The position numbers were made by a program, and so were the translations under genes. A stretch of DNA of 22,272 nucleotides from an uncultured Cellvibrio sp. (GTDB lineage: Bacteria; Pseudomonadota; Gammaproteobacteria; Pseudomonadales; Cellvibrionaceae): contig CAMLOU010000073.1 in NCBI GenBank assembly GCA_946481735.1, positions 1-22,272 on the forward strand, read 5' to 3'. Shown piece by piece: positions 1,744 through 21,270 of the stretch. The notes below the pieces were generated by a model. It was not told the DNA's origin. It made no database searches and saw only the letters and a program-made list of their open reading frames with translations. How positions within the stretch are numbered: position 1 is the stretch's first letter; each line of letters opens with the position of its first letter.

Positions 1744-3633
1744 TTATCGTTTTAACCGCAGCAAACCAAGCTTGTAAGGAATTCGCCCGTAGGACGATGC
1801 CGTGCCGGCTTCACCCTGGTAGAGGAATTCCAGATTGCACGGATCAATCGTAAGCCGCTCGTCGTAACCGGAGCGCACTAACTCGCCGTGGCTGATACCG
1901 CGTGACCATTTGCCTTGCGGCCATTCCACATTGTTCTCGCCCGCAAAAGGATTGGCTTCGGTATCGGCAAGCGGCGTCCAGGGACCATCGAGGCTGGACG
2001 ATGTCCAGGAGCGGAAATAACGCGGGCCGTAACCGGGTGTGTAATAGGCTTCCACCAACAATAAATATTGATTGAAGCCATCAACCTTATACACATTCGC
2101 CGCTTCAAACAGGAAGCTGTTGCCATTGCCGCGATGATCTTCCATCACGATGGAATAGCCGGAGAAGTTGGGGAAATTACCGATGGTAGTTTTGGACATA
2201 TACAACACACCGTCGTCACGCGAGAAATACAGGTAACAATGGGTCGCGTTACAAATTACCCAGAAATCCAGCGCGCCAGCGGGTTCGCCTTGCAATAATT
2301 TTTGTTTCGGTGACCAGCTGTTCGGGTTGGTGATATCGGTGGTGGTTGAATAGGCACCGGCCCATTGCGTGATTTGATACCAGCGATTGTGCGGGCGGAA
2401 GAAAAACACTTGCGGCGCAACGGCGTTACCCATCGCTGTTCCCCGGAAAGGAACCTGTGTTGCAGAACCGGCCTGATTCCAATCGGCAAAATTCATATAG
2501 ATCGAACCCCAACTGCCATCCCCGCCGGTAGAGGTATCAAACACCGTTGCAAAGATATGATACAAGCCGTTGTAACGCACAATGCTTGGATCTTTTACCG
2601 ATGCCCAGTTGGAACGCTGCGGTGAAATCAGCGGCGGTGTCGAGGTCCAGGAAAAACGGTTCGGCAACGCGCAGGACGGCGAGCTGGATGACGAACTGCT
2701 GGAAGAAGAACTGGAGCTGGTATTACCGCAGTTGCCTGCCGTTACACTGGCACCGGCGACGCTCAGTGAATCAACATTCGGCAAACCTTCTGCCGTCGAC
2801 GCCGACAACTGCAACACGTTATTGCCCTGCACCAGATCCACTTCGACAGAAACGGTTTGCCAGTTTTCCCAGCCGCCCGTTGCAGGCAAGCTGACGGAAT
2901 AATTTCCGTTACTGCCGCCATTAATCAACAAGGCACCATTGCGATTGCCGGTACCGCCATTGGCCATGCGGAAGGTCAAGGTGCGCGGACCGCTGCTGGC
3001 GGCCTGTACGGCCCACACAATCGCTGCGCCTTGCGCGTTGTTGGTGTTGGCAAATCCTGCACCGGTAAAACCGCTGTGGTTATTATCGACAGTACCGTCA
3101 ACGCGACAGAAACCACCCTGGGATTCCTGCAGCACCAGCGTTGATGGTGCGACAGAACTGGCAACCGAACTGCTGCTGGAACTGGTGCTCGGCGCGCTGG
3201 AAGAACTCGCCGGTGTTGAGGAGGTTGAACCGCCACCACACACACTGCCGTTGATGGTCGGGCGCTCTATGCTGCCGCCGTTGGTTTCACCTTGCACACC
3301 AAAACTGACCGATTGGCCCGGCGCAATGTTGCCGTTCCAGCCCATGTTGGTCGCGGTATAAGGATTGGAGCCGGAAAAATTCGCATTCCAGCCGCTCGAC
3401 ATGCGATTGGTGTTGTATTGCCAATTCACACTCCAGTTACTGATGGCTGTGTTGGTGTCGTTGGTGATGGTAATGCTCGCCACAAAACCCGAGCCCCATT
3501 CGTTATCGATAGAATAAGTACACGCGGCGGACGCGCCATGCGTGAAGGCGGCAAGCGCCGCACTCACACCAATGACACTGCACGCCCGCTTGATCGCGCT
3601 CGGCAGTATCGGGTTGAGGTTTATTAAATACAT
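1744..3633 (-). CDS. abf62A: Secreted CBM2-CBM35-GH62 alpha-L-arabinofuranosidase
   Basis: 629 residues. Signal peptide about 1-37 (ending ASA-AC); CBM2 about 37-132 with the typical aromatic residues NEWGSG, SGWNA and MGWNG; Ser linker; CBM35-like module about 166-302; a run of 15 Ser (305-319); GH62 catalytic domain about 321-629. Catalytic residues by family pattern are D348 (VKDPS, base), D456 (ALDFW, pKa modulator) and E510 (LFEAAN, acid). GH62 enzymes remove single arabinose side chains from arabinoxylan. CBM2 should anchor it to cellulose or xylan; CBM35 of the Cellvibrio homologue is known to bind glucuronic-type sugars with Ca2+. AAGGAGA sits 9 bases before the ATG. It is last of the leftward group, 112 bases after the GH43 gene. 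It matches the architecture of C. japonicus Abf62A (XynC); the symbol rests on that. Confidence 0.95.
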   Translation of the reverse strand: MYLINLNPILPSAIKRACSVIGVSAALAAFTHGASAACTYSIDNEWGSGFVASITITNDTNTAISNWSVNWQYNTNRMSSGWNANFSGSNPYTATNMGWNGNIAPGQSVSFGVQGETNGGSIERPTINGSVCGGGSTSSTPASSSSAPSTSSSSSSVASSVAPSTLVLQESQGGFCRVDGTVDNNHSGFTGAGFANTNNAQGAAIVWAVQAASSGPRTLTFRMANGGTGNRNGALLINGGSNGNYSVSLPATGGWENWQTVSVEVDLVQGNNVLQLSASTAEGLPNVDSLSVAGASVTAGNCGNTSSSSSSSSSSSSSPSCALPNRFSWTSTPPLISPQRSNWASVKDPSIVRYNGLYHIFATVFDTSTGGDGSWGSIYMNFADWNQAGSATQVPFRGTAMGNAVAPQVFFFRPHNRWYQITQWAGAYSTTTDITNPNSWSPKQKLLQGEPAGALDFWVICNATHCYLYFSRDDGVLYMSKTTIGNFPNFSGYSIVMEDHRGNGNSFLFEAANVYKVDGFNQYLLLVEAYYTPGYGPRYFRSWTSSSLDGPWTPLADTEANPFAGENNVEWPQGKWSRGISHGELVRSGYDERLTIDPCNLEFLYQGEAGTASSYGRIPYKLGLLRLKR

Positions 3634-3745: not shown

Positions 3746-6193
3746 TTACTCCAAACGGTAGTAATCGAAATCGACGTAGCCGCCGGTGGATTGCGTGCCG
3801 TAGTTAAACAACGCAAAGCGATAACCCATGAAATGATCCAGGTCATAGGTCATGCGCAGCGTGTTGCCGATGGCGCGCCAGTTGGAACCGTCGAGGCTGA
3901 AATAAAACCGCGCCTGATCGGTCTGGTTGCGGAAGTCCATATCGATGCGGAAATACACACGATTTTGATTGAGGCTGATGCGTTCGATTTCCTGCGGGCT
4001 GCCGGAGGTGGTGTCCACCATGATGATGGATTTATTGCCGCCGGATTGCGTCACGCCCACATAACCGTAACGCGCTTGCAAGGCACCGAGCCCGGCGTAG
4101 TCACCATCGCGCATGCCGTTGGTTTCCATCGCCACGCGCGCGGAACTTTGCGGGCCGAAAGTGCGTTGCGTGAGTGTATTGCGCGTGTTGACAAAACTGC
4201 TGTCGCGGCGCGTGTTGGTGATACGCATAAACCCGGGGCGTGCCTGTAACGACCAGCCGCTGTTATCCGGGTTGTGGTTCCATTGCCACTGCAAGGGCAA
4301 ACGTGTGCTATTGAATTCATCCGCCGTCACCACGCCGGCCAGCCCGTAATTTTCCACCGCAAAACCCAGTTGCTGCGGCACGCGCCCATTCACCCCAAAC
4401 ACCGGCCAGCCATTTTCCCAACGCACCGGCACCAGGTAAGGAATACGCCCGACGGCGCCGCTGTCTTTAAATAAAAACGCATACCAGTCACCGGTGGGTG
4501 TATCAATTAAATTGCCTTGCGCCACGCCTTGATCCTGCAAAGCAATGCGGCCTTGATAGGGGCCGGTTAAATTGTCGGCGCGATAAATTAATTGCGAACG
4601 CCCGCTGCCCACTGGCCAACTGATTAGTGAGATGTAATAGCGGCCATTGATTTTTTGCAGGTGTGCGCCTTCGGCGGGAACGTAAAAATTGGTACCGGCG
4701 ATGGCGGAAGCTTTGGTGATGATGGTTTGATTGATACCGCCGGGCTTGATGGCGGTGGCATCGGCGGTGAGTTCGATTAATTTAATATCGTCAACGCCGT
4801 AAACCAGAAACACGCGCCCGTTTTCAAAGAACAAGGCGGAGTCGTGATACAGGCCATTAAGCACCGAGGTCGTCCAGGAACCGCCTTCAATATTATTGGT
4901 TCGGTAAATATAGGTGCGGTTGGTGGTGTAGGAAAAGGTACTCACATAGAAGGTACCGTCCAGATACCGAATGCTGCTCGCCCAGGAACCATTACCATAA
5001 GCTTCTTGCCCGTTTTCCAGGTTCAATTGCGCGGTATTGGCAAGGGTGGAGTAGGCGTAATTTATCAGCGTCCAGTTTTTCAGGTCAGTGGATTTCATCA
5101 CCGGCACACCGGGACTCATGTGCATGGTGGTGCTGGTCATGTAGTAAGTATCGCCCACGCGAATCACCGAAGGATCGGGCACATCGGCCCAGATAATCGG
5201 ATTGCTTGCTTCCACTAAATCAACCGGTTCGTCATCGCGTTCACCGCCCACAGAAAAATCATCGGCGTAATAACTGACGCTGGTGTTGGACGATTCAATA
5301 ATAAAATGTTGAAAGGGCGTTCCACTCTGCGTGTAGTTGCCGCGTAACAAGGTCCAGCTAGTGGCGTTGGCGGTTACGCGCGCGATATTGGAATATTCGT
5401 TGTAGCTGCTGCTGTCCGCATCGTCTTCGCGTTTTGCTGTGAGAATAATTTCTGCTGCTGGCGAACCGGCGGCCAGTTTTACCCACACGGCTACATCATA
5501 GGTGTTGCCTTGGGTGAGTGAACCAACATTAAAAGTTAATCCGTTCCACGCAGATGTACGGCCAGTAATTAACGCACTGGCTGAACCGCTGCGGCGTTCC
5601 TGCGTCGAACGCGCCACGCTACCGGCGGTGGTTGCCCAGTTCGTTAAGCCATCTTCCACGCCGCCATTTTCGGCAAAGTTATTTGCGGGTGGAGAATAGG
5701 ACGAGCTGCTCGCGCTTGTCGTTACAATGGAACTGGACAGCGCGCTGCTGGATGACACAACAACGGAAGATTGTGCGGAAGAACTGCTGGAAGAAATCGG
5801 ATTACTACCGCCACACAGCGTGCCGCTCAGCGCGGGAATTTCCGGCGCGGCGTTGCCTTTAGTGCCCTGGAAACCGAACTCGGTTGATTGGCCCGCTGAT
5901 AAATTGCCATTCCAGCTCGCGTTGCTTGCAGCGTAAGGATTTGAACCACTGACCGTGGCATTCCAGCTGTTGGTGATGCGGTTATCGCCCGCATATTGCC
6001 AACTGACATTCCAGTTGTTCACGGCGGCGTTGGTGTTGTTGGTGATTTTTATCGAGGCCGTAAAACCATTGCCCCATTGATTGGTGACAGTGTATTCGCA
6101 CGCAGCCTGTACCGGTAACGCCATCGACGCTGCAGCTGTTGCCAGCATCACGAATTGCGTCGCGCGTTTGCGTAAATTGAGGGTGATGTTCAT
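3746..6193 (-). CDS. Secreted CBM2-CBM22-GH43 arabinofuranosidase/beta-xylosidase
   Basis: 815 residues. Signal peptide about 1-30 (VQA-AC); CBM2 about 31-128; Ser-rich linker; CBM22-like module about 171-318, closely related to those in the two neighbouring GH10 proteins ([30 protein letters not shown]); GH43 five-blade propeller about 330-620; C-terminal beta-sandwich about 625-815 (DUF1349-like accessory domain seen in longer GH43 enzymes). Predicted catalytic residues are D340 (VPDPS), D451 (YHDSALF) and E508 (PAEGAH). The MKSTDLKNW and STTMHM region recalls GH43 enzymes related to subfamily 12. Substrate choice between arabinofuranosidase and xylosidase is open. GGGAGA lies 11 bases before the ATG, a slightly long spacing. 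It stands between the GH10 and GH62 genes, whose Cellvibrio counterparts are adjacent, so it may be an insertion into an ancestral pair. Confidence 0.92.
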   Translation of the reverse strand: MNITLNLRKRATQFVMLATAAASMALPVQAACEYTVTNQWGNGFTASIKITNNTNAAVNNWNVSWQYAGDNRITNSWNATVSGSNPYAASNASWNGNLSAGQSTEFGFQGTKGNAAPEIPALSGTLCGGSNPISSSSSSAQSSVVVSSSSALSSSIVTTSASSSSYSPPANNFAENGGVEDGLTNWATTAGSVARSTQERRSGSASALITGRTSAWNGLTFNVGSLTQGNTYDVAVWVKLAAGSPAAEIILTAKREDDADSSSYNEYSNIARVTANATSWTLLRGNYTQSGTPFQHFIIESSNTSVSYYADDFSVGGERDDEPVDLVEASNPIIWADVPDPSVIRVGDTYYMTSTTMHMSPGVPVMKSTDLKNWTLINYAYSTLANTAQLNLENGQEAYGNGSWASSIRYLDGTFYVSTFSYTTNRTYIYRTNNIEGGSWTTSVLNGLYHDSALFFENGRVFLVYGVDDIKLIELTADATAIKPGGINQTIITKASAIAGTNFYVPAEGAHLQKINGRYYISLISWPVGSGRSQLIYRADNLTGPYQGRIALQDQGVAQGNLIDTPTGDWYAFLFKDSGAVGRIPYLVPVRWENGWPVFGVNGRVPQQLGFAVENYGLAGVVTADEFNSTRLPLQWQWNHNPDNSGWSLQARPGFMRITNTRRDSSFVNTRNTLTQRTFGPQSSARVAMETNGMRDGDYAGLGALQARYGYVGVTQSGGNKSIIMVDTTSGSPQEIERISLNQNRVYFRIDMDFRNQTDQARFYFSLDGSNWRAIGNTLRMTYDLDHFMGYRFALFNYGTQSTGGYVDFDYYRLE
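5240..5686 (-). repeat. CBM22-like coding repeat, copy 1 (in the GH43 gene)
   Basis: Encodes residues 170-318 of the CBM2-CBM22-GH43 protein. The same module, with very similar protein and DNA sequence, recurs at the 5' part of 6366-7694 and of 8445-9752. Shared blocks include [22 protein letters not shown] and YYADDF/FYADDF. The copies probably arose by duplication and module shuffling within the locus. Confidence 0.8.
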
Positions 6194-6365: not shown

Positions 6366-7694
6366 TTAACGCCCGATGTAATTCATCAACCAGGTCATGG
6401 CAGGACGGGGTGTGCCGTTTTCCGAAATCAAACCGGAACCTTCAATCCAGGTTCTGCCGTTGACATAGCCCCACAGAGTGATGCCTCTGACATGAGGGTG
6501 ATTCCAGAACACGGGGAAGTGCGCCTGGTAGTTTTGCAGTTGTACTTGATCGTTGTTATCGCCGATATCGTATTCCGAAATGTAGATGGGCTTGCCCACC
6601 TGGTTCCAGATATTGTCGATGGCAGTTTTAACTTGCGCGGCGGTCATACCCTTCAACTCGTGCGCCTGCAGGCCGACGGCATCAATATAATTGCCTTGTG
6701 CTCTGGCAAGCGTAATAAACTCGTTGTGTTGCCAGCGAATATTGTTGTAGTCGTTCAGGATCAGGATGGAGTTGGGGCAATATTGACGCGCGAGCTGGAA
6801 CGTCCGTTGAATCCAGTTATTGCCAAAGGCACGTTGTGCATAACCGGCAGGCTGATGGCCAGGCACAGCTTCGTTCACCACGTCGATCATCGCGGTATCC
6901 GGGTAGCGGGTGCAGTAATCGCGAATCCACTGTTCAATTTCAACGGCAACTTCCGGGCCGCTCAAATTGTTAAGCCATGACGGTGACTGCGCACCCCACA
7001 CAAAGGTGTGAGCTTTTACCGGAATATTATTTTGCCGCGCGTAGGCGTAGATGCGATCAAGCGGTGCCCAGTTGTAAACGTTGCGCGTACCTTCAACAGA
7101 ACCCCATTTACCTTCGTTTTCCGGGGTAATCTGATTCCAGTAACGGGTGAAGTCTGATCTCACCGCACCGGAGGTGGTGATGTTACCGACGAACTTACCG
7201 GTGTTGCCTGCACTGCTGGATGAACTTGATGAAGAGCTGGACGAGGGACGATCACCCGCCACTACAAAATCATCGGCGTAGTAACTGACGGTAGTGTTGT
7301 CGGACTCAATAATAAAGTGTTGGAACGGTGTACCCGATTGCGTGTAATAACCTTCCAGCAGCGTCCAGTTGTTAGCCGACACTTCCGCCATGGCAACGCG
7401 GGTATATTCGTTGTAGGTGGACGTGTCTGAATCGTCCTGCCGTTTGGCTGTCAGCATCACCACCGCATCCGGTGAACCCGCAGCCAGCCTGACCCAAACA
7501 CCCACGTTATATTCGCTGCCGTTGTTTAAGGCACCCGCATTAAACGTCAAACCATTCCACGCGGCTGTGCGACCGGTGATGTATGCACTGGCTGCGCCGG
7601 TGCGGCTCACAGAAGTAGTACGGGTGACCGTACCGGCAGTCGTTCCCCAGTTAGTCAGTCCACTTTCCACTCCACCGTTTTGCGCAATATTATT
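6366..7694 (-). repeat. CBM22-GH10 coding repeat, copy 2 (single GH10 gene)
   Basis: Residues 169-610 of the CBM2-CBM22-GH10 xylanase. They align along their whole length with residues 761-1195 of the neighbouring double enzyme (8445-9752), including the identical ends [15 protein letters not shown] tandem intragenomic duplication. Confidence 0.85.
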
Positions 7695-8198
7695 GCTCGG
7701 CGACGAGTAGCTGGATGATGAGCTGCTGACCGGTGGTGTACTGCTGGAAGACGACGAGGGTGTAGAAGAGGGCGCAGAACTGGAACTCACGCTGCCACCA
7801 CACAGTGCGCCGGTCACAGCAGGCACCTGCGCCGCTGCGCCGCCTTTGGTGCCCTGGAAACCAAACTCGGCCGATTGGCCCGGTTGTAAGCTGCCGTTCC
7901 AACTCGCGTTACTTGCACTATAAGGATTGCTGCCACTGACATTGGCATTCCAGCTGTTCGTCACGCGGTTATCGCCGGAATATTGCCAGCTGACATTCCA
8001 GCTGTTTACCGCCGCGTTGGTGTTGTTGGTGACTTTGACGGATGCAGTAAAGCCATTGCCCCACTGATTCGTTACCGTGTATTGGCAGGCTGCGTGAGCG
8101 GTGCTGGTCAAGGCCGCCGCCGCGAGTGTCAGCATCACACACTGCGCTGGCCGTTTGAGTAATGCCGGGCAAGACATTGTTTTTATCGATCTATACAT
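6366..8198 (-). CDS. Secreted CBM2-CBM22-GH10 endo-beta-1,4-xylanase
   Basis: 610 residues. Signal peptide about 1-36 (AHA-AC); CBM2 about 37-133 with Trp at NQWGNG, NSWNA and ASWNG; Ser linker; CBM22-like module about 169-316; short poly-Ser linker 319-329; GH10 catalytic barrel about 335-610. The acid/base is E443 (DVVNEA) and the nucleophile E542 (YISEYD); HTFVWG and GITLWG, typical GH10 motifs, are present. GAGG lies 8 bases before the chosen ATG; a second in-frame ATG at residue 8 is less well placed. It cuts internal xylan linkages outside the cell. The CBM22-GH10 half is nearly repeated in the next gene upstream, so the pair is a local duplication. By position and build it may correspond to C. 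japonicus Xyn10B (XynB), which is not certain enough for a symbol. Confidence 0.95.
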
Positions 8199-8444: not shown

Positions 8445-9752
8445 TTAACGATCCAGATAATTCATCAACCAGGTCATGGCCGGGCGCGGTGTGCCATTTT
8501 CCTGGATCAAACCACTGCCGTTCACCCAGGTGCGGCCCACGACATAACCCCACAGGGTGATGCCTCTTACCGACGGGTGGTTGTAGAACAGTGGGAATTG
8601 CGTCTGCATGATTTGCAGTTGTTGTTGGTCGTTGGTGCGCGCCACATCGTACTCGGAGATATAAATCGGCAAGCCCAATGCAGCCACCTGATTCAATTTG
8701 CTACTCACATCATTAAACGACCAGTCTTCCAGACCGTGCGCCTGTAACCCCAGGGCATCCACCACACCCGCTTGCACCGCCGGGCGCGCCATGGCGATAA
8801 ACTCGTTGGTGTTCCAGCTCAACACGTTGTAGTCATTCAGAATGAGAATGGCGTTGGGGCAATACTGCCGCGCAATCTGGAATACGCGAATAATCCAGTC
8901 GTTGCCGTAAGCGCGTTGCGCATAGGTTGCTGGCGCATGGCCGGGTGTAGCTTCGTTCACCACGTCGATCATCGCCGTATCGGGGTAGCGCGCGCAGTAA
9001 TCGCGAATCCATTCTTCAATTTCGGCGGCAACTTCCGGGCCACTCAAATTGTTGAGCCAACTCGGCGATTGATTACCCCACACAAAGGTGTGTGCTTTTA
9101 CCGGGATATTATTCGCGCGCGCATAGTTATAAATGCGGTCGAGTGGTGCCCAGTTATACACATCCCGTGTGCCTTCAATGGAACCCCACTTGCCTTCGTT
9201 TTCCGGCGTGATTTGATCCCAGTATTGAATAAAGTCGGAACGCACATTGCCGGAGGTAGTGATATTGCCGACAAAGAATTCATGATCGCCGCCACCTTGT
9301 TCCACTTCACCGCCGATAGAAAAATCATCCGCATAAAAACTGATGGTTTCGTTTTCTGATTCAATGATGAAATGCTGGAAGGGTGTACCGGATTGCGTGT
9401 AGTAACCTTGCAACAAGGTCCAGCCGTTAGCCGAGGCGGTAGCCATCGCCACTTGCGAATATTCGTTATAGGTCGAAGTATCCGCATCGTCCTGACGCTT
9501 GGCCGTTAACATCACCACCGAATCGGGCGAACCGGCGGCGAGCCTGACCCACACGGCTACGTCGTATTCGTTACCGGTCGTTAAGGCGCCGACAGTAAAG
9601 GTCAAACCATTCCACGCAGCCGTGCGACCGGTGATGTAGGCACTGGCAGAACCGCTACGGCGCTGGGAGGTATTGCGGCTTGCAGTACCGGCGGTTGACC
9701 CCCAGTTGCTGAAGCCACTTTCCACACCGCCGTTTTGCGCGAAATTATTCTC
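8445..9752 (-). repeat. CBM22-GH10 coding repeat, copy 3 (in the double enzyme)
   Basis: Residues 761-1195 of the double enzyme, paralogous to 6366-7694. Both catalytic Glu are kept. The main difference is the segment before the nucleophile (GLEDWSFNDVSSKLNQ here, [16 protein letters not shown] in the paralogue), suggesting diverged substrate binding. Confidence 0.85.
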
Positions 9753-12032
9753 CGGCACTTCATAACCAACGGAGGACGAAACGCTTGAAGATGGCGCACT
9801 GGATGACGGCGTGCTTGATGCAACACTGCTGGACGATACCGGCGGTGTGCCGCCACGGTTTGCGCAGAAACCGATAGACGAATCACTCTGGCCCGGTTGC
9901 AGGATGCTGTTCCAGCTAACACCGGACACATTTAACGTTGAACCGCTTTGACTCCATTCGCCATTCCACAAACTGCTCACGGTACCCTCAACCGTAATAC
10001 CCAGATTCCAGGTGACCGCTGAACCGCTGCTGTTGGTCACGGTGAGCGACGCACAATAACCGCCACCCCAGTCGTTGGTGATTTGTATCGAACCGGACAC
10101 ATTCCCGCCGGTGGGCGTCGAACTGGCCACGCTGCTCGCAACGCTTGAACTTACCGCACTGGAACTAAGGCTTGAGCTGACTGAACTGGCGCTGCTTGAC
10201 GTATTGTTGCTCGCACTGATGGTGCCGGCGCTCGCGGTAAGCGTCACCGCATCCAGACGCGTGCCGTCTTCGCGGCGCAAAATTCTCAGCACATGATTGC
10301 CCGCCGCCAGATTTTCAAAATTCGCGACAGACACGTTTTGCCAACCGCTGGTAGCGGTATTGTTTTGTGTGGTCCAGGCGCCGTTATCCAGTTTGTAATA
10401 GAACGAATCGTCGTCCGCATTGAGCATGGCCGCGCGCATCTGGAATTGCACACTGGCGGCTTGCGACAGCGAAAATGCAATCTGGATTTGTCCGCTCTCG
10501 TTGTCGGCGGGCGTGCCCAGCAATTGATTATTGTTGTTGGGCCATTCGATGTATTGGCCACCGGAAGCGGCGCTGTCGGATTGCACCAGGAACGGGCTGA
10601 AGCTGCTTTGATTACGCAACGATTCCAGCTCAACAGTTAATTGCCCGCTGCCGCCGGTCGTGCCGGTAAATTGATACCAATTCAAATTGTGCCCGGCGGT
10701 TGAACGCAGATACACATCGTGCACGCCGGTGACGCGGCTGAAAGAAACGGATTGCGTCTGCCAGGTTTGCCAGCCGCCGGTGTTTTGCACTTGCAAGGTG
10801 GCAATAGGCGCGTTGTTGATACTGTCCAGGCGAATTTCCAGACCGGAATTAATCGCCGCGGCCACACGCGCATTCATGCCCGTTGCACCCGCCCCGAAAT
10901 CCACAGCGGCAATTTTTACCCAATCGCCAGAACCCATCATCAGGTTCATGGTGCCTTCGCTGGCGCGCTCGGTTTCGATACCGTTTTCGTTATCAAACAT
11001 CTCCGCCTGATTGATGTTAAATGCGTTCACATTTTTTAATTGCGGAACGCCCACACGCCCAGCGTTCACGCGCTGCATGGTGCCATCGGCGTTGTAGTAC
11101 AAACGGTCCACGTTGATAGAGCGCGAAAAGGTGCTGTGACCCACTTCATTGGCCACCGCGCGATTGTGGTAAAAGATGTACCACTGATCTTTGTATTGAA
11201 TAATCGACTGGTGATTGTTGTTGCTGTTATTTTCCCAGGGCTGACCCAACACGGTGCCGCGACGGGTAAAACCGGACGTGGGATTGTTGCTGGTCATGTA
11301 GTCAATGGTTAAACCGCCGGCAGTGTCGGTGGAATAACTCAAATAGTAAGTGCCGTTTCTTTTGTGCATGTACAGCGCTTCAAAGAAATTTGGCACATCC
11401 AGGGTGATCGCCGAACCGCTGGTGCTGATCATGTCGTTGTTCAACCGAATCACGCGCGCGTTACCCGGACCGCCGCCGCCGAAATATAAATAAGCCTGGC
11501 CGTTATCATCGATAAACACACCTGGATCAAACAACCAGGTCACGTTGGCGTTGGGCGTGCTTCTGCTCACTAACGGACGCCCAAGTGGATCGGTGTAGGG
11601 GCCTTCGGGACGATCCGCGACGGCAACACCAATTGAACCGGCGCCGTCAGGAAAATATAAATAATATCGACCGTTGCGCTCGATAAAATCCGGCGCATAC
11701 GCCAGGTTCGCCCAAGAGGTATTGGTGCGCGAGTTCCAGATGATCCCGTGATCCTGCCAGTTGACCATGTCGTCGGAGGAAAACAGGTAGTAATCAATCA
11801 GCCCGCCGTAGTCCGCCTGGTTATCCTGATCGTGGGTGACTACCACATAGACGCGATCATTAAACACCCGCGCCGCCGGGTCAGCGGTATAAACATGGGA
11901 CACAAGGGGATTGTCGGCGTGAACTACCGATGCCGTTAACAACATCAGCCCGGCCAGCACGCGCAAGCAAACCTGTGTTGACGATATCACTCGATGATGG
12001 AACGATTTTTTTTCAGTCAGGTTGTTATTCAT
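8445..12032 (-). CDS. Secreted bifunctional GH43-CBM6-CBM2-CBM22-GH10 arabinofuranosidase/xylanase
   Basis: 1195 residues from ATG 12030-12032. This start, not an ATG 49 codons earlier, has AGGA 9 bases upstream and begins a clear signal peptide (about 1-39, VHA-D). Order: GH43 propeller about 40-335 with D51 (TADPA), D169 (LFDPG) and E218 (FFEAL); CBM6 about 338-457; a galactose-binding-like beta-sandwich about 464-601, not assigned to a family; Ser linker; CBM2 about 645-727; Ser linker; CBM22-like about 761-908; GH10 about 917-1195 with E1027 (VVNEA) and E1127 (YISEYD). The GH43-CBM6 half resembles arabinoxylan arabinofuranohydrolases such as XynD. The protein should debranch and cut arabinoxylan in one chain. 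The CBM2 is most like that of the GH30 upstream, the CBM22-GH10 most like the gene downstream, so it looks like a fusion made from its neighbours. It starts 29 bases after the GH30 stop, implying co-transcription. Confidence 0.93.
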   Translation of the reverse strand: MNNNLTEKKSFHHRVISSTQVCLRVLAGLMLLTASVVHADNPLVSHVYTADPAARVFNDRVYVVVTHDQDNQADYGGLIDYYLFSSDDMVNWQDHGIIWNSRTNTSWANLAYAPDFIERNGRYYLYFPDGAGSIGVAVADRPEGPYTDPLGRPLVSRSTPNANVTWLFDPGVFIDDNGQAYLYFGGGGPGNARVIRLNNDMISTSGSAITLDVPNFFEALYMHKRNGTYYLSYSTDTAGGLTIDYMTSNNPTSGFTRRGTVLGQPWENNSNNNHQSIIQYKDQWYIFYHNRAVANEVGHSTFSRSINVDRLYYNADGTMQRVNAGRVGVPQLKNVNAFNINQAEMFDNENGIETERASEGTMNLMMGSGDWVKIAAVDFGAGATGMNARVAAAINSGLEIRLDSINNAPIATLQVQNTGGWQTWQTQSVSFSRVTGVHDVYLRSTAGHNLNWYQFTGTTGGSGQLTVELESLRNQSSFSPFLVQSDSAASGGQYIEWPNNNNQLLGTPADNESGQIQIAFSLSQAASVQFQMRAAMLNADDDSFYYKLDNGAWTTQNNTATSGWQNVSVANFENLAAGNHVLRILRREDGTRLDAVTLTASAGTISASNNTSSSASSVSSSLSSSAVSSSVASSVASSTPTGGNVSGSIQITNDWGGGYCASLTVTNSSGSAVTWNLGITVEGTVSSLWNGEWSQSGSTLNVSGVSWNSILQPGQSDSSIGFCANRGGTPPVSSSSVASSTPSSSAPSSSVSSSVGYEVPENNFAQNGGVESGFSNWGSTAGTASRNTSQRRSGSASAYITGRTAAWNGLTFTVGALTTGNEYDVAVWVRLAAGSPDSVVMLTAKRQDDADTSTYNEYSQVAMATASANGWTLLQGYYTQSGTPFQHFIIESENETISFYADDFSIGGEVEQGGGDHEFFVGNITTSGNVRSDFIQYWDQITPENEGKWGSIEGTRDVYNWAPLDRIYNYARANNIPVKAHTFVWGNQSPSWLNNLSGPEVAAEIEEWIRDYCARYPDTAMIDVVNEATPGHAPATYAQRAYGNDWIIRVFQIARQYCPNAILILNDYNVLSWNTNEFIAMARPAVQAGVVDALGLQAHGLEDWSFNDVSSKLNQVAALGLPIYISEYDVARTNDQQQLQIMQTQFPLFYNHPSVRGITLWGYVVGRTWVNGSGLIQENGTPRPAMTWLMNYLDR

Positions 12033-12061
12033 AGTGATTATCCTGTTGTAAAAAAATGAGG

Positions 12062-13660
12062 TTAACGCGACGCACAGAAACCGACGGACGACTCGGTCTG
12101 GCCCGGTTGCAATTGGCTGTTCCAACCCACACCGGCCACCGTGAGTGTCGAACCGCTTTGGCTCCAGCTGCCGTTCCACAAATTGTTCACCGTGCCCTGA
12201 ACCGTCACGCTGACATTCCAGGTCACCGGCGCGCCCGTATTGTTATTGACGAGCAGGTTTGCGCAGTAACCGCTGCCCCAATCGTTGCTGATTTCAACGC
12301 TCGCCGTGACACCGCCGTTAGCGCTGCTGGCACTGGAGGAAGGCTGTGAGGAGGCTTGCGAGGAAACCGCTACCGAAGAGCGGGACGATGCGGTACTGCT
12401 GACACTGGATGAACTGCCGCTGCCCGCTTCACTGACGAAGGTGGCAACGCTTTGCGGATCAACCCACACCGATGCGCTATTACCGGCAACGCTGGTGCGG
12501 CCACCGTAGCCGAGGTTCAATGACGCAGAGGTGCTGTATTTAACAAACTGCCCGACATTCACGTTCTGCAAATTCAGGTTCAGATTGCGGTGGGAGGTAG
12601 TGGTATTAACCGCGATCACCACCACGCGATTGTCCGGACCTTTATAAGCCGTAACAAAAACCCCCGTGAGCGGTTGTTCCGTAGCGGCAATGCGCACATA
12701 ACCGGGCCGCACAAATTTCGAGTACTGCGCCATCAGATAACCGCGCTTGCTGATGGCACCGTCTTCCGTCAACAGGCCATAACTGCGGCGGATATACCAC
12801 CAGATATACGCGTTAAAGTTGGCCACCATGCTCTGGTGCAACTCCGTGCCGACATCCAGTGCCAAGGGCCAGGCGTTAGCGGAATTCTGGCTTTCGGTGT
12901 AGTGCTCCGTCATCCAGAGTTCCTTGCCCTTGCTGCGCGCCAATGGATAATCGCGCGGCGCGCGGCCATACAAATGGCCACCGATAATATCCACGTGTTG
13001 CGCGGTGTTAGCGTTGTTCAGCATGGGATCAGAGAGCGCCGGATTAAAATTGAGCGACTCAGGCGCCACCACCTTCAGCGAGCCAAAACGCGAACCCTGG
13101 CTCAACAAATAATTTACAAAATCCGTCGCGCTCCAGTCGGCGGATTCGTAATTGGGATGCCAATCCGGTTCGTTCTGGAGCGACAACGCATAGATCGAAG
13201 CGTTATTCGAGGCCATAAAGTTGGTAAAGCTCAACAGATGATCCGTGTAAGCGCCGTAATATTCCGGCCGCAGTTTGCCGCCGTTATTCAGGTTGTTATT
13301 GGTTTTCATATAGGCTGGCGGCGACCAGGGCGAGGCCAGCAGAATCGCGCCGTGGGATTTTGCGCGCACGGCTGCGGGCACCTGAATGCCCCAGTTATTG
13401 GAATTGGGATCAATGCGCATCCGCATGATCGATAGGCCCAACTGCCCGTCGCCATTACCAAAGGCGGTGTCCACTTGGGCAGAGGTCAGGTCGGCAATCC
13501 AGCCGGGGGCATTCATACCACCGAAGCCACGAATGGTTTGGTGTTCGGTTGACGGGTTGATGTTGACGGTTTGTGCAAAGGCCGGGCTGCAAATCAAACA
13601 CACACCGACCAACGACTTAAACACTATCTCTCTAAAGCTCTTTATCTTATTAGTCTCCAT
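12062..13660 (-). CDS. Secreted GH30-CBM2 glucuronoxylan endo-xylanase
   Basis: 532 residues. Signal peptide about 1-29 (AFA-Q); GH30 barrel plus side beta-domain about 31-412; Ser-rich linker; C-terminal CBM2 about 450-532 with Trp at NDWGSG, NLWNG and VGWNS and a Cys pair (C466, C529). The acid/base is E164 (LQNEPDW) and the nucleophile E252 (WMTEHYT). The motif WWYIRRSYG (R291-R292) matches the element that subfamily 8 glucuronoxylanases use to recognise a methylglucuronic acid branch, so cleavage guided by MeGlcA is expected. GCAGGGAAA sits 6 bases before the ATG. It is the first gene of the leftward enzyme series, directly downstream of the regulator gene, and the double-enzyme gene follows 29 bases later. 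Family assignment is very secure; subfamily is inferred from the Arg motif. Confidence 0.94.
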   Translation of the reverse strand: METNKIKSFREIVFKSLVGVCLICSPAFAQTVNINPSTEHQTIRGFGGMNAPGWIADLTSAQVDTAFGNGDGQLGLSIMRMRIDPNSNNWGIQVPAAVRAKSHGAILLASPWSPPAYMKTNNNLNNGGKLRPEYYGAYTDHLLSFTNFMASNNASIYALSLQNEPDWHPNYESADWSATDFVNYLLSQGSRFGSLKVVAPESLNFNPALSDPMLNNANTAQHVDIIGGHLYGRAPRDYPLARSKGKELWMTEHYTESQNSANAWPLALDVGTELHQSMVANFNAYIWWYIRRSYGLLTEDGAISKRGYLMAQYSKFVRPGYVRIAATEQPLTGVFVTAYKGPDNRVVVIAVNTTTSHRNLNLNLQNVNVGQFVKYSTSASLNLGYGGRTSVAGNSASVWVDPQSVATFVSEAGSGSSSSVSSTASSRSSVAVSSQASSQPSSSASSANGGVTASVEISNDWGSGYCANLLVNNNTGAPVTWNVSVTVQGTVNNLWNGSWSQSGSTLTVAGVGWNSQLQPGQTESSVGFCASR

Positions 13661-13963
13661 AAATTTCCCTGCTGTTTTTGATTATTGGACAAGGTAAGGC
13701 TTGGCGACGAGGTTGAGCGCCGGGCAATGCCGAGGCGGGAGAATAATGACGCGGGCAGAAAGAAGGTTTGCACTTATGAAAGAGTTTTTAAAAAATGCAA
13801 AAAATTTCAGTAGTAATGTAAATAGTTAAATGAATCTTGTGCCAGCCCGACGTAAAGTGTGAAACACACCACGCTCCGCTTTGGGCGATTCTGCAGTGAG
13901 TAGGTGTGTTGAAAGAAAGAGCTATGGCGAGAAAGGGCACTTCAAAAAATCAAACACGGAGGG
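13661..13963 (-). promoter_or_regulatory. Upstream region of the GH30-led enzyme operon
   Basis: 303 noncoding bases between the regulator stop and the GH30 start. On the minus strand TTTACA followed after 17 bases by TGCATT is a poor sigma70 match, as expected for an activator-dependent promoter. An inverted repeat AACACACC / GGTGTGTT (13863-13870, 13903-13910, 32-base centre) could be a weak terminator for the regulator gene or a regulator site. No strong terminator follows the regulator, so read-through into GH30 is possible. Confidence 0.4.
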
Positions 13964-15124
13964 TTAAACGTCTTCTTTGGATTGATACAAGGTTTTAAAT
14001 GTTTTCGGTGTACAACCGTATTCATTTTTAAATAGCTTATTGAAATAAGAAACATTGTTGTATCCAACTAAATAAGCAATTTCCGATACGTTGGCATCTT
14101 CATTTTCTGACAGAAGTCGCGCAGCTTCTGTGAGGCGCAACTTGTTCAAATAGGCGGTGAAGGTGAGACCCAGTTCTTCTTTTAATATTTCATTTATCTT
14201 GGTTCGATTGATACCCAGCGACAGTGTCGCTGATTCGAGGCTGATATCCGGGTTCGCATATTCTGTTGCCATCAAACGTAACAGTGCGCTTTTTTCTTTG
14301 TCTTTTTGCGGTTCAATCGACAGCTTTTTATAGGCCAGCAACGGCTGATCCAGTCTGACTTTTTCTCTGATATCCGCCGTTAGTACAAAAATGTAACGAC
14401 GAAACAACCCGATCAAAAACAATGCCCAGATCAATACGCTTATCAACACTGCTATATAAATATATTGAGGCGCCGTGCCTTCGAACTTCACGTCCGTGAG
14501 TCTTACATGGGAGAGCGTGTTCAAGGGGCTTTGCAATGAATTGACAAAGGCAATACCCATGGTCTTGTGTAATTGATAGCCTTGATCGCTGAATTCATAG
14601 CCATATCTGTCCAGCCACCAATGGGGTGTATCCAGTTCATCAAATCCGATCGTTATCGTTGTCCATTGGTTATCGCAGGAGAAAGCGCTGGAAGAAACGC
14701 GCCGCGTCACCGGCCTGATCGGGTCGGTCACTTTTTCGTCATAACTGAACAACACAAACAGCAACACATTTTTAGGGTCACATAAAATTCGAAACGAGAC
14801 GTTACTATAGCGAGTGAGATCGACCAGTTTGTATGGCTGCGCGGAGTCAATAAAATAAAAAGAATAGTGTGTGTAGGGAAACTCGGCATCAGGATCAAGA
14901 AAGAATTCGTAATCGATGGTTCCCACTTCGCTTTTGACATTTAATACCGTTTTATTTTCTTGTTCTGAGGGTTCAATCGCAGGCGCCCACACCAGCGTCG
15001 CGTCACGCTTGGGAAATAGCGACGTGCTGAGCTGTGACTTCGCCACGCCAACCGCGATGATAAGCGCAGTGAGCAAGAGCAGCATTAAAAATGCGAGCGC
15101 CGCATTGCGATAAAATTTAAGCAT
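13964..15124 (-). CDS. Membrane-anchored AraC-family regulator with extracytoplasmic sensor domain
   Basis: 386 residues. One membrane segment at about 8-28, an extracytoplasmic region about 29-219, a second membrane segment about 220-240, a short linker, and an AraC-type double helix-turn-helix about 285-382 (NRTKINEILKEELG, VSEIAYLVGYNNVSYFNKLFKN, C-terminal GCTPKTFK). The outside region has the pattern of a galactose-binding-like beta-sandwich (VDLTRYSNVSFRI, WTTITIGFDEL, VRLTDVKFEG), as in CBM11 and related carbohydrate-binding folds. It is therefore a one-component transmembrane sensor-regulator, probably detecting a sugar in the periplasm. Only this ATG is usable: upstream in frame is a stop with no start between. 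No Shine-Dalgarno precedes it, but a short ORF with a good one ends across its start. Its position between the TonB receptor and the GH30-led enzymes points to control of the xylan cluster; ligand and targets are inferred. Confidence 0.9.
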   Translation of the reverse strand: MLKFYRNAALAFLMLLLLTALIIAVGVAKSQLSTSLFPKRDATLVWAPAIEPSEQENKTVLNVKSEVGTIDYEFFLDPDAEFPYTHYSFYFIDSAQPYKLVDLTRYSNVSFRILCDPKNVLLFVLFSYDEKVTDPIRPVTRRVSSSAFSCDNQWTTITIGFDELDTPHWWLDRYGYEFSDQGYQLHKTMGIAFVNSLQSPLNTLSHVRLTDVKFEGTAPQYIYIAVLISVLIWALFLIGLFRRYIFVLTADIREKVRLDQPLLAYKKLSIEPQKDKEKSALLRLMATEYANPDISLESATLSLGINRTKINEILKEELGLTFTAYLNKLRLTEAARLLSENEDANVSEIAYLVGYNNVSYFNKLFKNEYGCTPKTFKTLYQSKEDV

Positions 15125-15584: not shown

Positions 15585-18566
15585 TTAAAACGAGGCGCGA
15601 ACACCCAAGGTGACAAACATGCCCGGGTCGTAGTAACTGAAGGTTGCGGAATCGTAGTGGAACGTCTGCCGAATGGGTTCACTGGTTAAGTTGGTGATAT
15701 TCAAACTGACCTGGGGTGCACCCGTGATATTTTCAAAATCATAACTGGCTGACAAATCCAGCTGGCCGCGTGCATCGGTTTTTAATTGTGCGTAGGGAAT
15801 ACCATTTTGATTTAACCCGGAAGACAACTGCTCGTCATTCCACACATAGGTTAAACGAATGGCTGCGCCGTAATTTTCCCAGTAGGCCGTGAAGTTGTAG
15901 GTTTCCGGCGATACCCCAATAGCTTGTGCCGGTGCACCCTGGCCTTCGCTGCGTTGATGGATATGGGTGTAGTTGGCGTTGATGCCCAGGCCTTCCAGAA
16001 TCATGTCCAACGGTTGTACCCAGGTCACCTCTGCGCCTTCAATCTCCAGATTTCCATCCGCGTTCACTTGTTGGGTAACCGTCACCTGGGCCACATCCGG
16101 CCCACCGCGGCTCATGATCGCGGCCTGTGCCGTGGGGGATAAGGAATCAAACGGAATCATGAAGGGATTACCAATCGCCACCGGCAATTGCGCAAAGGGA
16201 ATGGTGGTATTTTGATTGACGGTAAAACCGGTCAACTGTTTTCCGAATAACGTCAAACCGATATAGCCTTCGTTACCGGTATACCATTCACCACCGATAT
16301 CCAGATTGGTGGACAGGTAGGGTTGCAGATCCGGATTGCCTTGCGAGGCATTTTGCGCGGAGGGATCGCTAAAATTGGTGGCCGGCAACATCGCACTGGG
16401 GTTGGGACGCGTCATGGTTCGGGAGGCGGAAAAGCGCAACACCACATCCTCCGCCGCATCAAAACTGACGTTCAGCGACGGCAAAAAATAATTGTAGTTG
16501 GATGATACGCCGCTATAAAACCGTTGCGCTGCCACCGGCGGATTGGCCGTGGGTTGCGCGGCAATGGACACCGGGCCTTCAATTATCTGATCGGTTTCCA
16601 CATAGCGGCCACCGAGGTTGAGCCGCATCGCGCGCCCGGCGACATCCGTGGTTGCATTGAATTCGAGGTAAGCCCCCACCGTGTCTTCATCTACGATGCC
16701 GGTTGACGCACCCGTTGCCGAACCGCCACCTTCCGGCGCATTTCGGGCGAGGTTGTAGTAATCCGTGGCCGCAAAGAAACGGTTGAAATCCACACTGATA
16801 AAACCGGCCGGGCCGGGAATTAAATAGGACGCCAGTTCTGATTGCGGCACGGCAGAATTCGGGTTTAAGCCGTTACAGGGCGCGCGATCGGTGGTGGGCG
16901 AATCGCCATTCTCATCCAGGCCATTGCGACACACCACATCCTCCCACCGGCCACTGTTGTCGTAGCCGCGAATCGCGCGGCGAATGGTGTCTTGGGCTAC
17001 ACCTACCTTGATGTTGTTGTCGTCATCGCCAAACCGATAATCCACATGGATACCATCAGTTTCAGTATCGCGCTCTTCCAGCGAAATATTTACGCGTCCA
17101 CCGCCGGTCCATGTCCACCCGGCATTGGGGTCATTCAGATCCACCGCCGAGGTATAGCTGGGCACTTCACCGTTCACGAAATCGACTTGCCCGATGGGTG
17201 TATTCACCAGCACGGTGGGTTGCGAACGCTTCCAATCGCTGCGGCTTGAATTTAGTTGCACATCCAGCGCGTGTGCATCGCCAAATTCAAAATGCGCACC
17301 GGGATTGATGTTGTAGAAATCCAGATCTTCGGTGTAGGGCCGTGCTTCGAGCATGAACTGCGCACCACCGAAGGTGGCCGACTGCACGACGTTGTTCGCA
17401 TCCAGCACCATGTCGGTCGGTATGGCCGTGCCGTTACGGCCGATAAACGCTAGCGCCAGGCGATCAAAGTCGCGGGTCTGATTGGTGGCGATAACGTCCA
17501 GATAAAATTGCATGGCGTCGCTCGGGCGATACTCAAATGACACGAGACCACTCACGCGATCCTGCTCACCATCCATGTACGCCGTGCGACCCAAACGCGG
17601 AATCAGCGCTTCGGAAATTTGCGTGATATCAAGTCCCGGATTTTGCGCCAGTAAAAAGCTTTGATCGATGATCGTGCCCGCCACCAAACCCGCGCCGGCA
17701 TTGGCCGGCACCACGCCATAACCAAAATTGGGATCATTCGCGTCCTGGATCAGTCCCGCCACATTCCAGTTGTTGCCGCCCGAGGGATTGCAACCACCGG
17801 TGGTCGCCTGGGTTTGGCCTGCACCTGGTGTGGTGCCGCAAATTCGGTGCGAGGTATTGAGGTTGGTCCAACCGATGGTTTCAAATCCTTCCGTGGTTAA
17901 TTGTTTATTAAAAACGGAAATACCACCCAACACACCGAAGGTATCATTCGTCCAACTTCCCAGGGCCGACAATTTTGGACTGATCTCATCATTGATATCG
18001 GTATAAACACCTTGGGCGTTTACTACTGAGTGGAAGCCTTGCTCACTGTTATCAAACGGGCGCGCGTTACGAATGTTGACCACACCCGCCGCACCACCTT
18101 CCAGCATGCTGGCCGTCGGCGTTTTTTGTACATCGAAGCGCGTAAAAAGCTCGGTGGGAAACAGATCCAGATCGATCTCGCGATTCTGGTTTTGTGAATC
18201 AACACTGCCGGCAGAAGCAACAGCGATTTGTGCGTTGTTGAGCGTTACCTTGGTAAAACTCGTGCCCAGGCCGCGAATGGACACGTTGGTGCCATCGCCA
18301 AACACGTTGCGATTGATCTGGATGCCGGGCATGCGGTTGATCGCTTCAGCGATATTGGCGTCGGCAAATTTACCGATGTCTTCTGCGAACACCGATTCCA
18401 CTAACGCCGTTGAAGCGCGCTTGGCATTGGTCGCGTTCTGCAAACTGCCCTTGTAACCCGTCACCACCAATTCTTCAATCTGGTCCTGCGCAATAGCCCC
18501 CGATGATGCCACCGCAAGGCTGAGTAAACTGATCGTAAACAGAGGAGAAAGACGTGTTGAGTCCAT
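15585..18566 (-). CDS. TonB-dependent outer membrane receptor (probable xylo-oligosaccharide importer)
   Basis: 993 residues from ATG 18564-18566, chosen because AAGGGA lies 7-8 bases upstream and the signal peptide (about 1-26, AIA-Q) starts there; an ATG 14 codons earlier has no ribosome binding site. TonB box EELVVTGYK at 31-39; plug domain about 45-170 (IAEAINRMPGIQI, VSIRGLG, EGGAAGVVNIR); beta-barrel to the C-terminus, ending in Phe (VTLGVRASF) as in most outer membrane barrels. It resembles the large TonB-dependent receptors of Caulobacter and Xanthomonas type often linked to polysaccharide use. Standing beside the regulator and xylanase genes, it probably takes up (arabino)xylo-oligosaccharides; the substrate is inferred from context only. 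It is a single-gene transcript by its terminator. No SusD-like partner is present, as expected in gammaproteobacteria. Confidence 0.93.
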   Translation of the reverse strand: MDSTRLSPLFTISLLSLAVASSGAIAQDQIEELVVTGYKGSLQNATNAKRASTALVESVFAEDIGKFADANIAEAINRMPGIQINRNVFGDGTNVSIRGLGTSFTKVTLNNAQIAVASAGSVDSQNQNREIDLDLFPTELFTRFDVQKTPTASMLEGGAAGVVNIRNARPFDNSEQGFHSVVNAQGVYTDINDEISPKLSALGSWTNDTFGVLGGISVFNKQLTTEGFETIGWTNLNTSHRICGTTPGAGQTQATTGGCNPSGGNNWNVAGLIQDANDPNFGYGVVPANAGAGLVAGTIIDQSFLLAQNPGLDITQISEALIPRLGRTAYMDGEQDRVSGLVSFEYRPSDAMQFYLDVIATNQTRDFDRLALAFIGRNGTAIPTDMVLDANNVVQSATFGGAQFMLEARPYTEDLDFYNINPGAHFEFGDAHALDVQLNSSRSDWKRSQPTVLVNTPIGQVDFVNGEVPSYTSAVDLNDPNAGWTWTGGGRVNISLEERDTETDGIHVDYRFGDDDNNIKVGVAQDTIRRAIRGYDNSGRWEDVVCRNGLDENGDSPTTDRAPCNGLNPNSAVPQSELASYLIPGPAGFISVDFNRFFAATDYYNLARNAPEGGGSATGASTGIVDEDTVGAYLEFNATTDVAGRAMRLNLGGRYVETDQIIEGPVSIAAQPTANPPVAAQRFYSGVSSNYNYFLPSLNVSFDAAEDVVLRFSASRTMTRPNPSAMLPATNFSDPSAQNASQGNPDLQPYLSTNLDIGGEWYTGNEGYIGLTLFGKQLTGFTVNQNTTIPFAQLPVAIGNPFMIPFDSLSPTAQAAIMSRGGPDVAQVTVTQQVNADGNLEIEGAEVTWVQPLDMILEGLGINANYTHIHQRSEGQGAPAQAIGVSPETYNFTAYWENYGAAIRLTYVWNDEQLSSGLNQNGIPYAQLKTDARGQLDLSASYDFENITGAPQVSLNITNLTSEPIRQTFHYDSATFSYYDPGMFVTLGVRASF

Positions 18567-18687
18567 AGAAAAATCCCTTACTGGTTGATTATTGTTGAGC
18601 CCTTGCATAAACCCGGTGGCTGATGCAAAAGCCGTTATTCAGGATCGTCATGCACACTTGCGTACTTGTATACAGGCGTGTCGCTCA

Positions 18688-18716
18688 ATCCTATTCCTTG
18701 TCTGTTTATAGATCAA
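18688..18716 (-). promoter_or_regulatory. Candidate promoter of the TonB receptor gene
   Basis: On the minus strand TTGATC (18711-18716) and TAGGAT (18688-18693) are 17 bases apart, each matching four of six consensus bases. The leader would be about 115 bases. A moderate match, fitting a regulated promoter. Confidence 0.4.
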
Positions 18717-20172: not shown

Positions 20173-21270
20173 TCAGTTAATGCGAATCGGGATGTAGGTG
20201 GCGTTGTTACTGGTAACCGTTTCCGCGAGTGTATCGTCGTAATCAATGACTGCACCGATCCAGTAATCTTTACCCGCCGTCAAATCGCCAGGTATCATCA
20301 GATTGCGTTTGAAGGTATTGGGTTGATTGCGACCCACCGATATGATTCCCGTACCGATCAAACGATCCAATGTGGAAATAGTGCTGTTGCTTGAGATGTA
20401 ATAGGCAATTTTTCTTTGTTGAAAACTCTTGCCATTATTTTCTGCCGTCAGCTCCAATTTCACCGCTTGATTTTTGTTGACCCGATAACGCCGCTCACCG
20501 TCATCGATAAACGAACTCAATACGGCATCAAATGAGTTATATAGGCGCGTGGGTTGATGCGTACTGTACTCACCGCTGGTGCCCTGATATTTAAAATTGG
20601 TCAGCGATACATCTTCCATCGTTCCGGTGGTAGCGCCGTATAAATGCACTGCACCGTCCGCTGCATCTTCACCCAAATAGGAACGCGCGGTGTTGCCATT
20701 CACGTGTATGTGATCCCAATCCTGGCCCATGATGTTGTACCAGCGGTTTTCGTGTTTCAGACCCAGCGCATGACCAAACTCATGGATTGCTGTGGTCTGG
20801 AATGGACGCGCCGGACCACCGAAAGGCCAGAGGCTGGTTTTGGCCATTGAGGTGGTGTAGTTGGTCGCCACATTGAAAACCACGTCCACTTCATCAATGC
20901 CGTAGTGCCAGCCGAACAACCAGTAGCAATGCCTCCAGCTCAGGGCAATTGCCGGCGCACCGTCCAGAATATCCGGATTATCGCTGAACCAGACTTCATT
21001 CTGATTATTATTACGACCTACTGACGAATCACCGAGTACCAACGAGAAATTAAACTTGCTGGGATTATCGTTAACCCGGGCGATGGTGGTTTGCAGCGAA
21101 CTGGTAAACGACGAGCCAGGGGCAAAACTGACATTGCTCGCGCGCATGGTTACGGTGTTGCTGCCCCATTTGATTTTATTGCCATTGCAGGTGCGCCATT
21201 GCGCGGCATTCACCTGGGCGGCAATCAGAGTGATAAATAGTGCGGTGATGGTTAAAAAAATTCTGTTCAT
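20173..21270 (-). CDS. Secreted matrixin-like metzincin metalloprotease
   Basis: 365 residues. Signal peptide about 1-22 (VNA-A). A catalytic domain about 25-215 holds the zinc motif HEFGHALGLKH (163-173: ligands H163, H167 and H173, general base E164) and a Met-turn at M181 (YNIMGQ), the metzincin signature. The C-terminal part about 225-365 looks like a CARDB-type beta-sandwich (SLTNFKYQG, AVIDYDDTLAETVTSNNATYIPI), probably for adhesion or substrate presentation. There is no obvious propeptide cysteine switch. AAGGAAG lies 7 bases before the ATG. It follows a secreted protein gene by 41 bases, so the two are probably co-transcribed. The substrate is unknown; it could process surface or plant wall proteins. 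Protease assignment is secure, subfamily approximate. Confidence 0.9.
   Translation of the reverse strand: MNRIFLTITALFITLIAAQVNAAQWRTCNGNKIKWGSNTVTMRASNVSFAPGSSFTSSLQTTIARVNDNPSKFNFSLVLGDSSVGRNNNQNEVWFSDNPDILDGAPAIALSWRHCYWLFGWHYGIDEVDVVFNVATNYTTSMAKTSLWPFGGPARPFQTTAIHEFGHALGLKHENRWYNIMGQDWDHIHVNGNTARSYLGEDAADGAVHLYGATTGTMEDVSLTNFKYQGTSGEYSTHQPTRLYNSFDAVLSSFIDDGERRYRVNKNQAVKLELTAENNGKSFQQRKIAYYISSNSTISTLDRLIGTGIISVGRNQPNTFKRNLMIPGDLTAGKDYWIGAVIDYDDTLAETVTSNNATYIPIRIN

Follow-up and report, generated by a model that had tools for sequence, protein, structure and literature searches.

Does a membrane-bound regulator encoded beside a set of xylanase genes read a sugar outside the cell and switch on its neighbours? 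The question is raised by positions 1 to 22,272 of contig CAMLOU010000073.1 (assembly GCA_946481735.1) from an uncultured Cellvibrio sp., the whole of which is called the window below, and by its gene for a 386-residue AraC-type protein. An earlier note on this DNA had proposed that two membrane segments enclose about 190 residues resembling a carbohydrate-binding sandwich, that a C-terminal AraC helix-turn-helix (HTH) acts from the membrane, and that the adjacent genes are its targets. We find that the regulator is real, that its predicted structure and context are well supported, and that the mechanism is likely, with a sugar as the putative ligand.

The gene is exactly one 386-codon open reading frame (ORF) on the minus strand, from 15124 to 13964 in the ORF list, and the corresponding plus-strand frame contains numerous stops. 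Hydropathy peaks at residues of about 7–28 and 221–241 bracket residues 29–219. The C-terminus matches HTH_18 (E = 3e-21) and HTH_AraC (E = 1.4e-10), and no further Pfam family exceeds its own cut-off in the protein. The AlphaFold2 model (145 sequences, mean predicted local distance difference test score 87.7) comprises a helix at 2–30, beta strands from 31 to 217, a helix at 219–262 and a helical C-terminal domain, which is the two-HTH DNA-binding domain of the AraC/XylS transcription factors. Hydropathy, Pfam and the model thus agree on the arrangement described in the note. The topology, with two transmembrane helices, an extracytoplasmic domain and a cytoplasmic HTH, is likewise supported by prediction, including that for 69 family regulators from fetched loci: at the cut-off used, 62 have exactly two hydrophobic peaks, five have three and two have one. 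Of 67 family regulators, 45 have more Lys plus Arg on the cytoplasmic flanks, 10 have equal numbers and 12 show the reverse. Cysteines 115 and 150, both present in 69/69 regulators, could form a disulfide, fitting a periplasmic domain; the W169-W170 pair is invariant in the same 69. A soluble AraC protein was rejected given the two hydrophobic segments, and a hybrid two-component system was rejected as no histidine kinase or receiver domain was found by Pfam in the 386 residues. A K_trans match (E = 0.017, or 0.0083 with the sensor piece alone) was discarded, being below the cut-off and situated over the second helix.

Over residues 29–219 the fold search with the model did not return an unrelated fold; it places the predicted domain among beta sandwiches of the carbohydrate-binding module (CBM) type, in line with the note, and likens it to CBM11. 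Most of the fold matches listed over the sensor range are CBMs or domains of polysaccharide-degrading enzymes, and the fold is also common to CIA30-type complex-I assembly factors. By sequence the sensor is outside CBM11: the CBM_11 profile matches neither the regulator at E = 0.1 nor any of 16 sensors at E = 1. The same profile found nothing in three genomes or in 14 controls. The sensor profile had no match among sequences of solved structures, and the viral fold library yielded mixed matches, including CBM-like, AraC-type and phage tail proteins.

A whole-protein search gives 1474 matches, many presumably through the DNA-binding half. Residues 26–265 alone match 240 proteins at E ≤ 0.01, and hence the two-membrane-segment sensor is more than a chance arrangement. 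At E ≤ 0.001 the sensor profile matches 53 of 144 genomes from the family to which a Cellvibrio relative belongs, strongly in 48 (best E 2.2e-51 or better) and only weakly in five. More than one match is seen in 29 of the 53, with a maximum of eight, weak matches included; strong matches reach six or seven per genome. Members are present too in Alteromonas and in an Alteromonadaceae metagenome-assembled genome (L015, L016). The mean pairwise identity of the 69 regulators is 63% in the DNA-binding domain and 35% in the sensor. A plasmid-borne family was rejected: 285 plasmid records match, none across more than 80% of the query.

The relatives tend to lie beside genes of polysaccharide breakdown. 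Forty loci were fetched around the better matches; the set is non-random and contains many orthologues, so its counts are not independent. Thirty-nine loci have, within three genes of the regulator, a next gene encoding 200 residues or more; in 38 it is on the same strand. In 32 of the 39 it encodes, by Pfam, a glycoside hydrolase (GH; families 10, 30, 43, 5 or 39) or a pectinesterase, and the gap is 73–547 base pairs (bp) in 33. As a scale for comparison, Saccharophagus degradans has 128 GHs and 4008 genes by the count of its genome paper (PMC2386152). On the sensor tree, nine neighbour labels require 8 changes, the minimum, vs 19.1 after shuffling, and the GH5 label alone requires three; the tree is a quick one, with 22 of 66 inner branches open, 22 of 69 rows unlabelled and orthologues contributing, and some labels (the second copy in L111, L156, L198, L201) come from BLAST likeness or the cluster and not from a Pfam scan. 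The sensor sequence thus appears to track the class of the neighbouring enzyme.

The spacer between regulator and enzyme genes provides a candidate DNA site. Of 41 regions of 600 bp that follow a regulator, 15 contain the word CTTCAACTTT on one strand or the other; ahead of the regulator it does not rank with the commonest words. In the GH5 sensor clade this word forms two direct half sites with the consensus CTTCAACTTTTTGCA, spaced by 21 bp. A half-site model was trained on ten loci of this clade (in two of them the next gene is GH39, L133, or a sulfatase, L140) and applied to 28 other loci at spacings of 12–44. Spacing 21 averages 13.7, other spacings 1.6 (standard deviation, sd, 2.2), and the runner-up is 8.5 at spacing 38; after dropping the three held-out loci with GH5 neighbours (L130, L131, L142), z = 5.1. 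In 19 further intergenic regions, a cleaner test although these had been scanned once earlier with a fixed model, spacing 21 scores 3.9 vs −3.5 (sd 0.96, z = 7.7); L198 and L201, fetched because of operator matches, are dropped here and included in the control run. Regions upstream of regulators produce no peak (z = −0.3 and −0.4), nor do shuffled sequences (z = 0.5). When both strands of whole held-out loci are ranked, the intergenic site is best in 18 of 28, second in two, third in two, lower in four and not found in two. AraC/XylS factors bind direct repeats, spaced by about 21 bp in araI1-I2. The conserved 21-bp direct repeat beside the family genes has this geometry, and the family regulator is its predicted binder. 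In two GH10-glucuronyl-esterase loci (L112, L118) an inverted half-site copy, TTTTTCGCA...TGCGAAAAA, is seen by eye after the operator and is a possible extra site.

In the window, the predicted half sites are ATTTAACTATTTACA (13817–13831) and CTGAAATTTTTTGCA (13796–13810), and the operator lies 135 bp ahead of the start of the GH30 gene. A joint model built from 28 loci, with clear misses, the window itself and its closest relative L113 excluded, scores 13796–13831 at 30.4; with training confined to other loci, no site anywhere in the window scores higher. Among 100 random sequences matched to the window in length and dinucleotide composition, the top joint-model score averages 7.7 (sd 2.9, largest 16.1). 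The next site unrelated to the operator, at 18698 ahead of the TonB receptor, reaches 8.5; this falls inside the null range and is not claimed. The control of adjacent genes proposed in the note is thereby supported by prediction.

Two patterns were searched for across seven genomes; both were written from regulator loci, so that matches linked to a regulator are partly by construction and unlinked ones are not. The xylan-clade pattern gives 23 matches at up to two mismatches vs 14 for the reversed control, hence many weak ones are chance; of the five exact matches, four adjoin a family regulator and one precedes an unlinked gene. The longer GH5-clade pattern gives eight matches in five genomes, six of them adjoining a family regulator, and none for the reversed control. 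In three genomes, sites with zero or one mismatch stand 116–132 bp ahead of SASA-esterase/CBM2 genes (L196 at about 6528, L199 at about 6913, L200 at about 6088), whose products may be acetyl-xylan-esterase-like. A pirin-like gene has another such site 121 bp ahead of it; a GH30 gene is preceded by a two-mismatch site, which the half-site model leaves unranked. The unlinked copies suggest a small trans regulon.

The sensor is apparently common to a second class of proteins. The weak sensor matches that were followed up, of about 445 residues, resemble proteins in which two transmembrane segments flank the sensor and a GGDEF domain follows (L072 3398–6379, L073–L077, L083, L154, L067 and L121 3589–4884, the last found by likeness to L154 and not by the sensor profile); one that was scanned matches GGDEF in Pfam at E = 2.1e-41. 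In an alignment of 11 such proteins the GGEEF motif is intact and the WW pair present in all 11. Profile comparison of the two types of sensor gives a probability of 98.3 (E = 1.9e-14, 171 columns), and the model of one GGDEF fusion has a strand order similar to that of the AraC-type sensor; the matches listed in its fold search cover the GGDEF half only. Profile comparison, weak search matches and predicted strand order together point to a shared sensor. In L121 the GGDEF-type gene adjoins a GH43 gene that comes after an AraC-type member, and a link of polysaccharide signals to cyclic-di-GMP is possible; in L072, L077 and L083 the neighbours are, by eye, what we take to be translation and nucleotide genes.

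The features of the window are collected in Table 1. The locus is of the xylan type by Pfam, with GH30, GH43-GH10, GH10, GH43 and GH62 genes downstream on the regulator's strand, all five carrying CBM2. The listed GTG start of the GH43-GH10 gene (8445–12179) falls within the end of the GH30 gene; an internal ATG, followed by a signal-peptide-like stretch seen by eye, is probably the true start. A terminator-like hairpin with a T run (15567–15547) lies directly 3' of the TonB-dependent receptor gene, and therefore the receptor may be on a separate transcript and the regulator may start its own. The near-identical relative L113 (sensor 99%) has a 370-residue ORF between these two genes that is absent from the window. 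Farther away, the protein at 20173–21270 has a metalloprotease-type motif, HEFGHALGLKH, seen by eye, and adjoins a protein at 21312–22160.

Table 1. Features of the regulator and its surroundings in the window.
Feature	Coordinates	Strand	Evidence
Membrane-bound AraC-type regulator, 386 residues (P0001)	13964..15124	minus	ORF, Pfam, AlphaFold2 model
First transmembrane helix, residues about 7–28	15041..15106	minus	hydropathy; model helix 2–30
Predicted extracytoplasmic CBM11/CIA30-like beta sandwich, residues 29–219	14468..15040	minus	AlphaFold2 model, fold search, conservation
Second transmembrane helix, residues about 221–241	14402..14464	minus	hydropathy; model helix extends to residue 262
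AraC/XylS DNA-binding domain, residues about 285–381	13982..14272	minus	HTH_18 at 303–377; structure matches
Predicted operator, a pair of direct half sites at 21-bp spacing	13796..13831	minus	half-site and joint models
GH30 enzyme with CBM2, first gene past predicted operator	12062..13660	minus	ORF, Pfam
GH43-CBM6-CBM2-CBM4/9-GH10 enzyme	8445..12179	minus	ORF, Pfam
GH10 enzyme with CBM2 and CBM4/9	6366..8198	minus	ORF, Pfam
GH43 enzyme with CBM2 and CBM4/9	3746..6193	minus	ORF, Pfam
GH62 enzyme with CBM2 and CBM6	1744..3633	minus	ORF, Pfam
TonB-dependent receptor, upstream of regulator	15585..18608	minus	Pfam

Taken together, we consider it probable that the regulator is a one-component switch spanning the inner membrane. 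Its CBM-fold domain in the periplasm, with a sugar as putative ligand, would sense an oligosaccharide released from (arabino)xylan; binding would be relayed through the membrane helices to paired cytoplasmic AraC domains, presumably in a dimer, and these would act on the 21-bp-spaced repeat upstream of the GH30 gene, activating rather than repressing the xylanase cluster in cis, plus a few related genes elsewhere. Topology and fold were computed here as models, and the family, the gene context and the conserved repeat were computed from the sequences.

A number of results weigh against this explanation. No Pfam CBM family matches the sensor, and its hhalign comparison with CBM11 domains is poor (probability 10.2, E = 0.0031; of ten matches in 391 genomes from the class of a Clostridium relative, eight were aligned and two partial ones excluded). 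This weak alignment sets W169-W170 opposite the DY of an RRLDY stretch in CBM11, a lead only; the pair may be structural, because the GGDEF proteins conserve it as well. Seven of the 39 next genes are neither GH nor pectinesterase (two TonB receptors, a cytochrome-type gene, a sulfatase, an M23 peptidase, a CBM-only fragment and an esterase-type gene), and the xylan label alone requires five changes on the sensor tree, so its bearers do not form a single clade. As for the repeat, the regulator coding sequences used as a control yield z = 2.2, the held-out regions read in reverse have a much lower peak, again at 21 (−1.5 vs −6.0, z = 3.4), and the reverse strand of the second set gives z = 1.6. 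Spacing 21 is the single best in just 16 of the 28 held-out and seven of the 19 further regions, and no clear site was found at the expected place in L117, L122, L125, L127, L128 and L129. The 21-bp spacing had also been noticed by eye in some held-out loci before the spacing test.

Other explanations have to be weighed against the same data. The sandwich might sense a protein partner (for instance part of a TonB system, a periplasmic binding protein or an enzyme that is secreted) or serve dimerisation, and not bind sugar at all; we regard this as unlikely, since the listed fold matches over the sensor are mostly CBMs or polysaccharide-degrading domains and the sensor sequence follows the class of the neighbouring enzyme. 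The repeat might belong to another transcription factor, or be a core promoter element, lying near the regulator by chance. Its half sites are AT-rich, its link to the regulator is predicted, and some family loci lack it while some unlinked genes have it; however, there is no peak upstream of the regulators, and six of the eight GH5-clade matches (these six partly by construction) adjoin a family regulator vs none in the reversed control, which makes a foreign site very unlikely.

The cluster could also be run mainly by another system, for instance the AbfS/AbfR two-component system of Cellvibrio japonicus, the regulator being an accessory or a repressor. Regulation of xylan degradation in C. 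japonicus by a two-component system is indeed reported by a paper (Emami 2009) that a 2024 review cites (PMC10766802), but a direct repeat of AraC geometry is conserved between regulator and enzyme genes in many loci, and we hold this arrangement to be distinctly unlikely. The one-component sensing of xylan fragments remains the preferred explanation.

The general kind of switch was already known. In the S. degradans genome paper 16 of 31 AraC regulators are membrane-bound, detection of extracellular polysaccharides by such proteins was proposed in 2008, and Table 2 places Sde_0324 and Sde_3613 of strain 2-40, which resemble the window regulator in the number of transmembrane regions and the kind of neighbours, beside a cellulase and a beta-1,4-xylanase (PMC2386152). 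We recover two family members in this genome (G128), beside GH5 and GH43-GH10 genes (L145, L146); from their position they should be Sde_0324 and Sde_3613. The GH5-side member has a strong site (29.4) 148 bp upstream, and the GH43-GH10-side member has none. Section 9 of that paper gives transmembrane counts and neighbours and is silent on a sensor fold, an operator and any tie to GGDEF proteins; no account of these three was found in the literature searched (subscription papers being mostly outside it), nor any other paper there on membrane-bound AraC proteins beside polysaccharide genes. PMC10318527 was rejected as a prior account, as "two transmembrane" there describes an ABC permease. The note's remark that such a protein is little described therefore stands for what appears new, the sensor fold, the DNA site and the sharing with GGDEF proteins, and falls for the general idea.

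The nearest known systems differ in construction. CBM11 (CtCBM11 of Lic26A-Cel5E) occurs within an enzyme rather than a regulator, and its sequence family is not that of the sensor. RsgI anti-sigma factors of Clostridium thermocellum, which carry external CBMs, similarly let a substrate outside gate transcription inside; nine of them are described, for different substrates. An RsgI factor is, however, cut by a membrane protease, whereas the window regulator has its DNA-binding domain on the same chain and implies no protease. ToxR/CadC, with an N-terminal winged helix and one transmembrane segment, and the hybrid two-component systems of Bacteroides, with kinase and receiver domains and an AraC domain at the end, also pass a signal across the membrane to DNA; the window regulator shares the AraC terminus with the latter but has two transmembrane segments and no kinase or receiver found.

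How Cellvibrio-type bacteria choose their wall-degrading enzymes is only partly known; the available part of the 2024 review speaks of two-component, sigma-factor and repressor systems (PMC10766802). A genome may carry as many as six or seven AraC-type copies, their enzyme neighbours differ and an operator is predicted; together these make the question directly testable, and paralogues with known neighbours could yield modular sugar biosensors. For the Cellvibrionaceae as a whole, we give an even chance to a broader picture, which would be a Gram-negative equivalent, on one chain, of the sigma factors that polysaccharides gate in clostridia. In it one interchangeable CBM-fold periplasmic sensor serves as a plug-in input: its AraC fusions would be paralogous membrane switches, each tuned to one plant polysaccharide and working through a shared 21-bp direct-repeat operator on the neighbouring enzyme gene, and its GGDEF fusions would report similar signals to cyclic-di-GMP.
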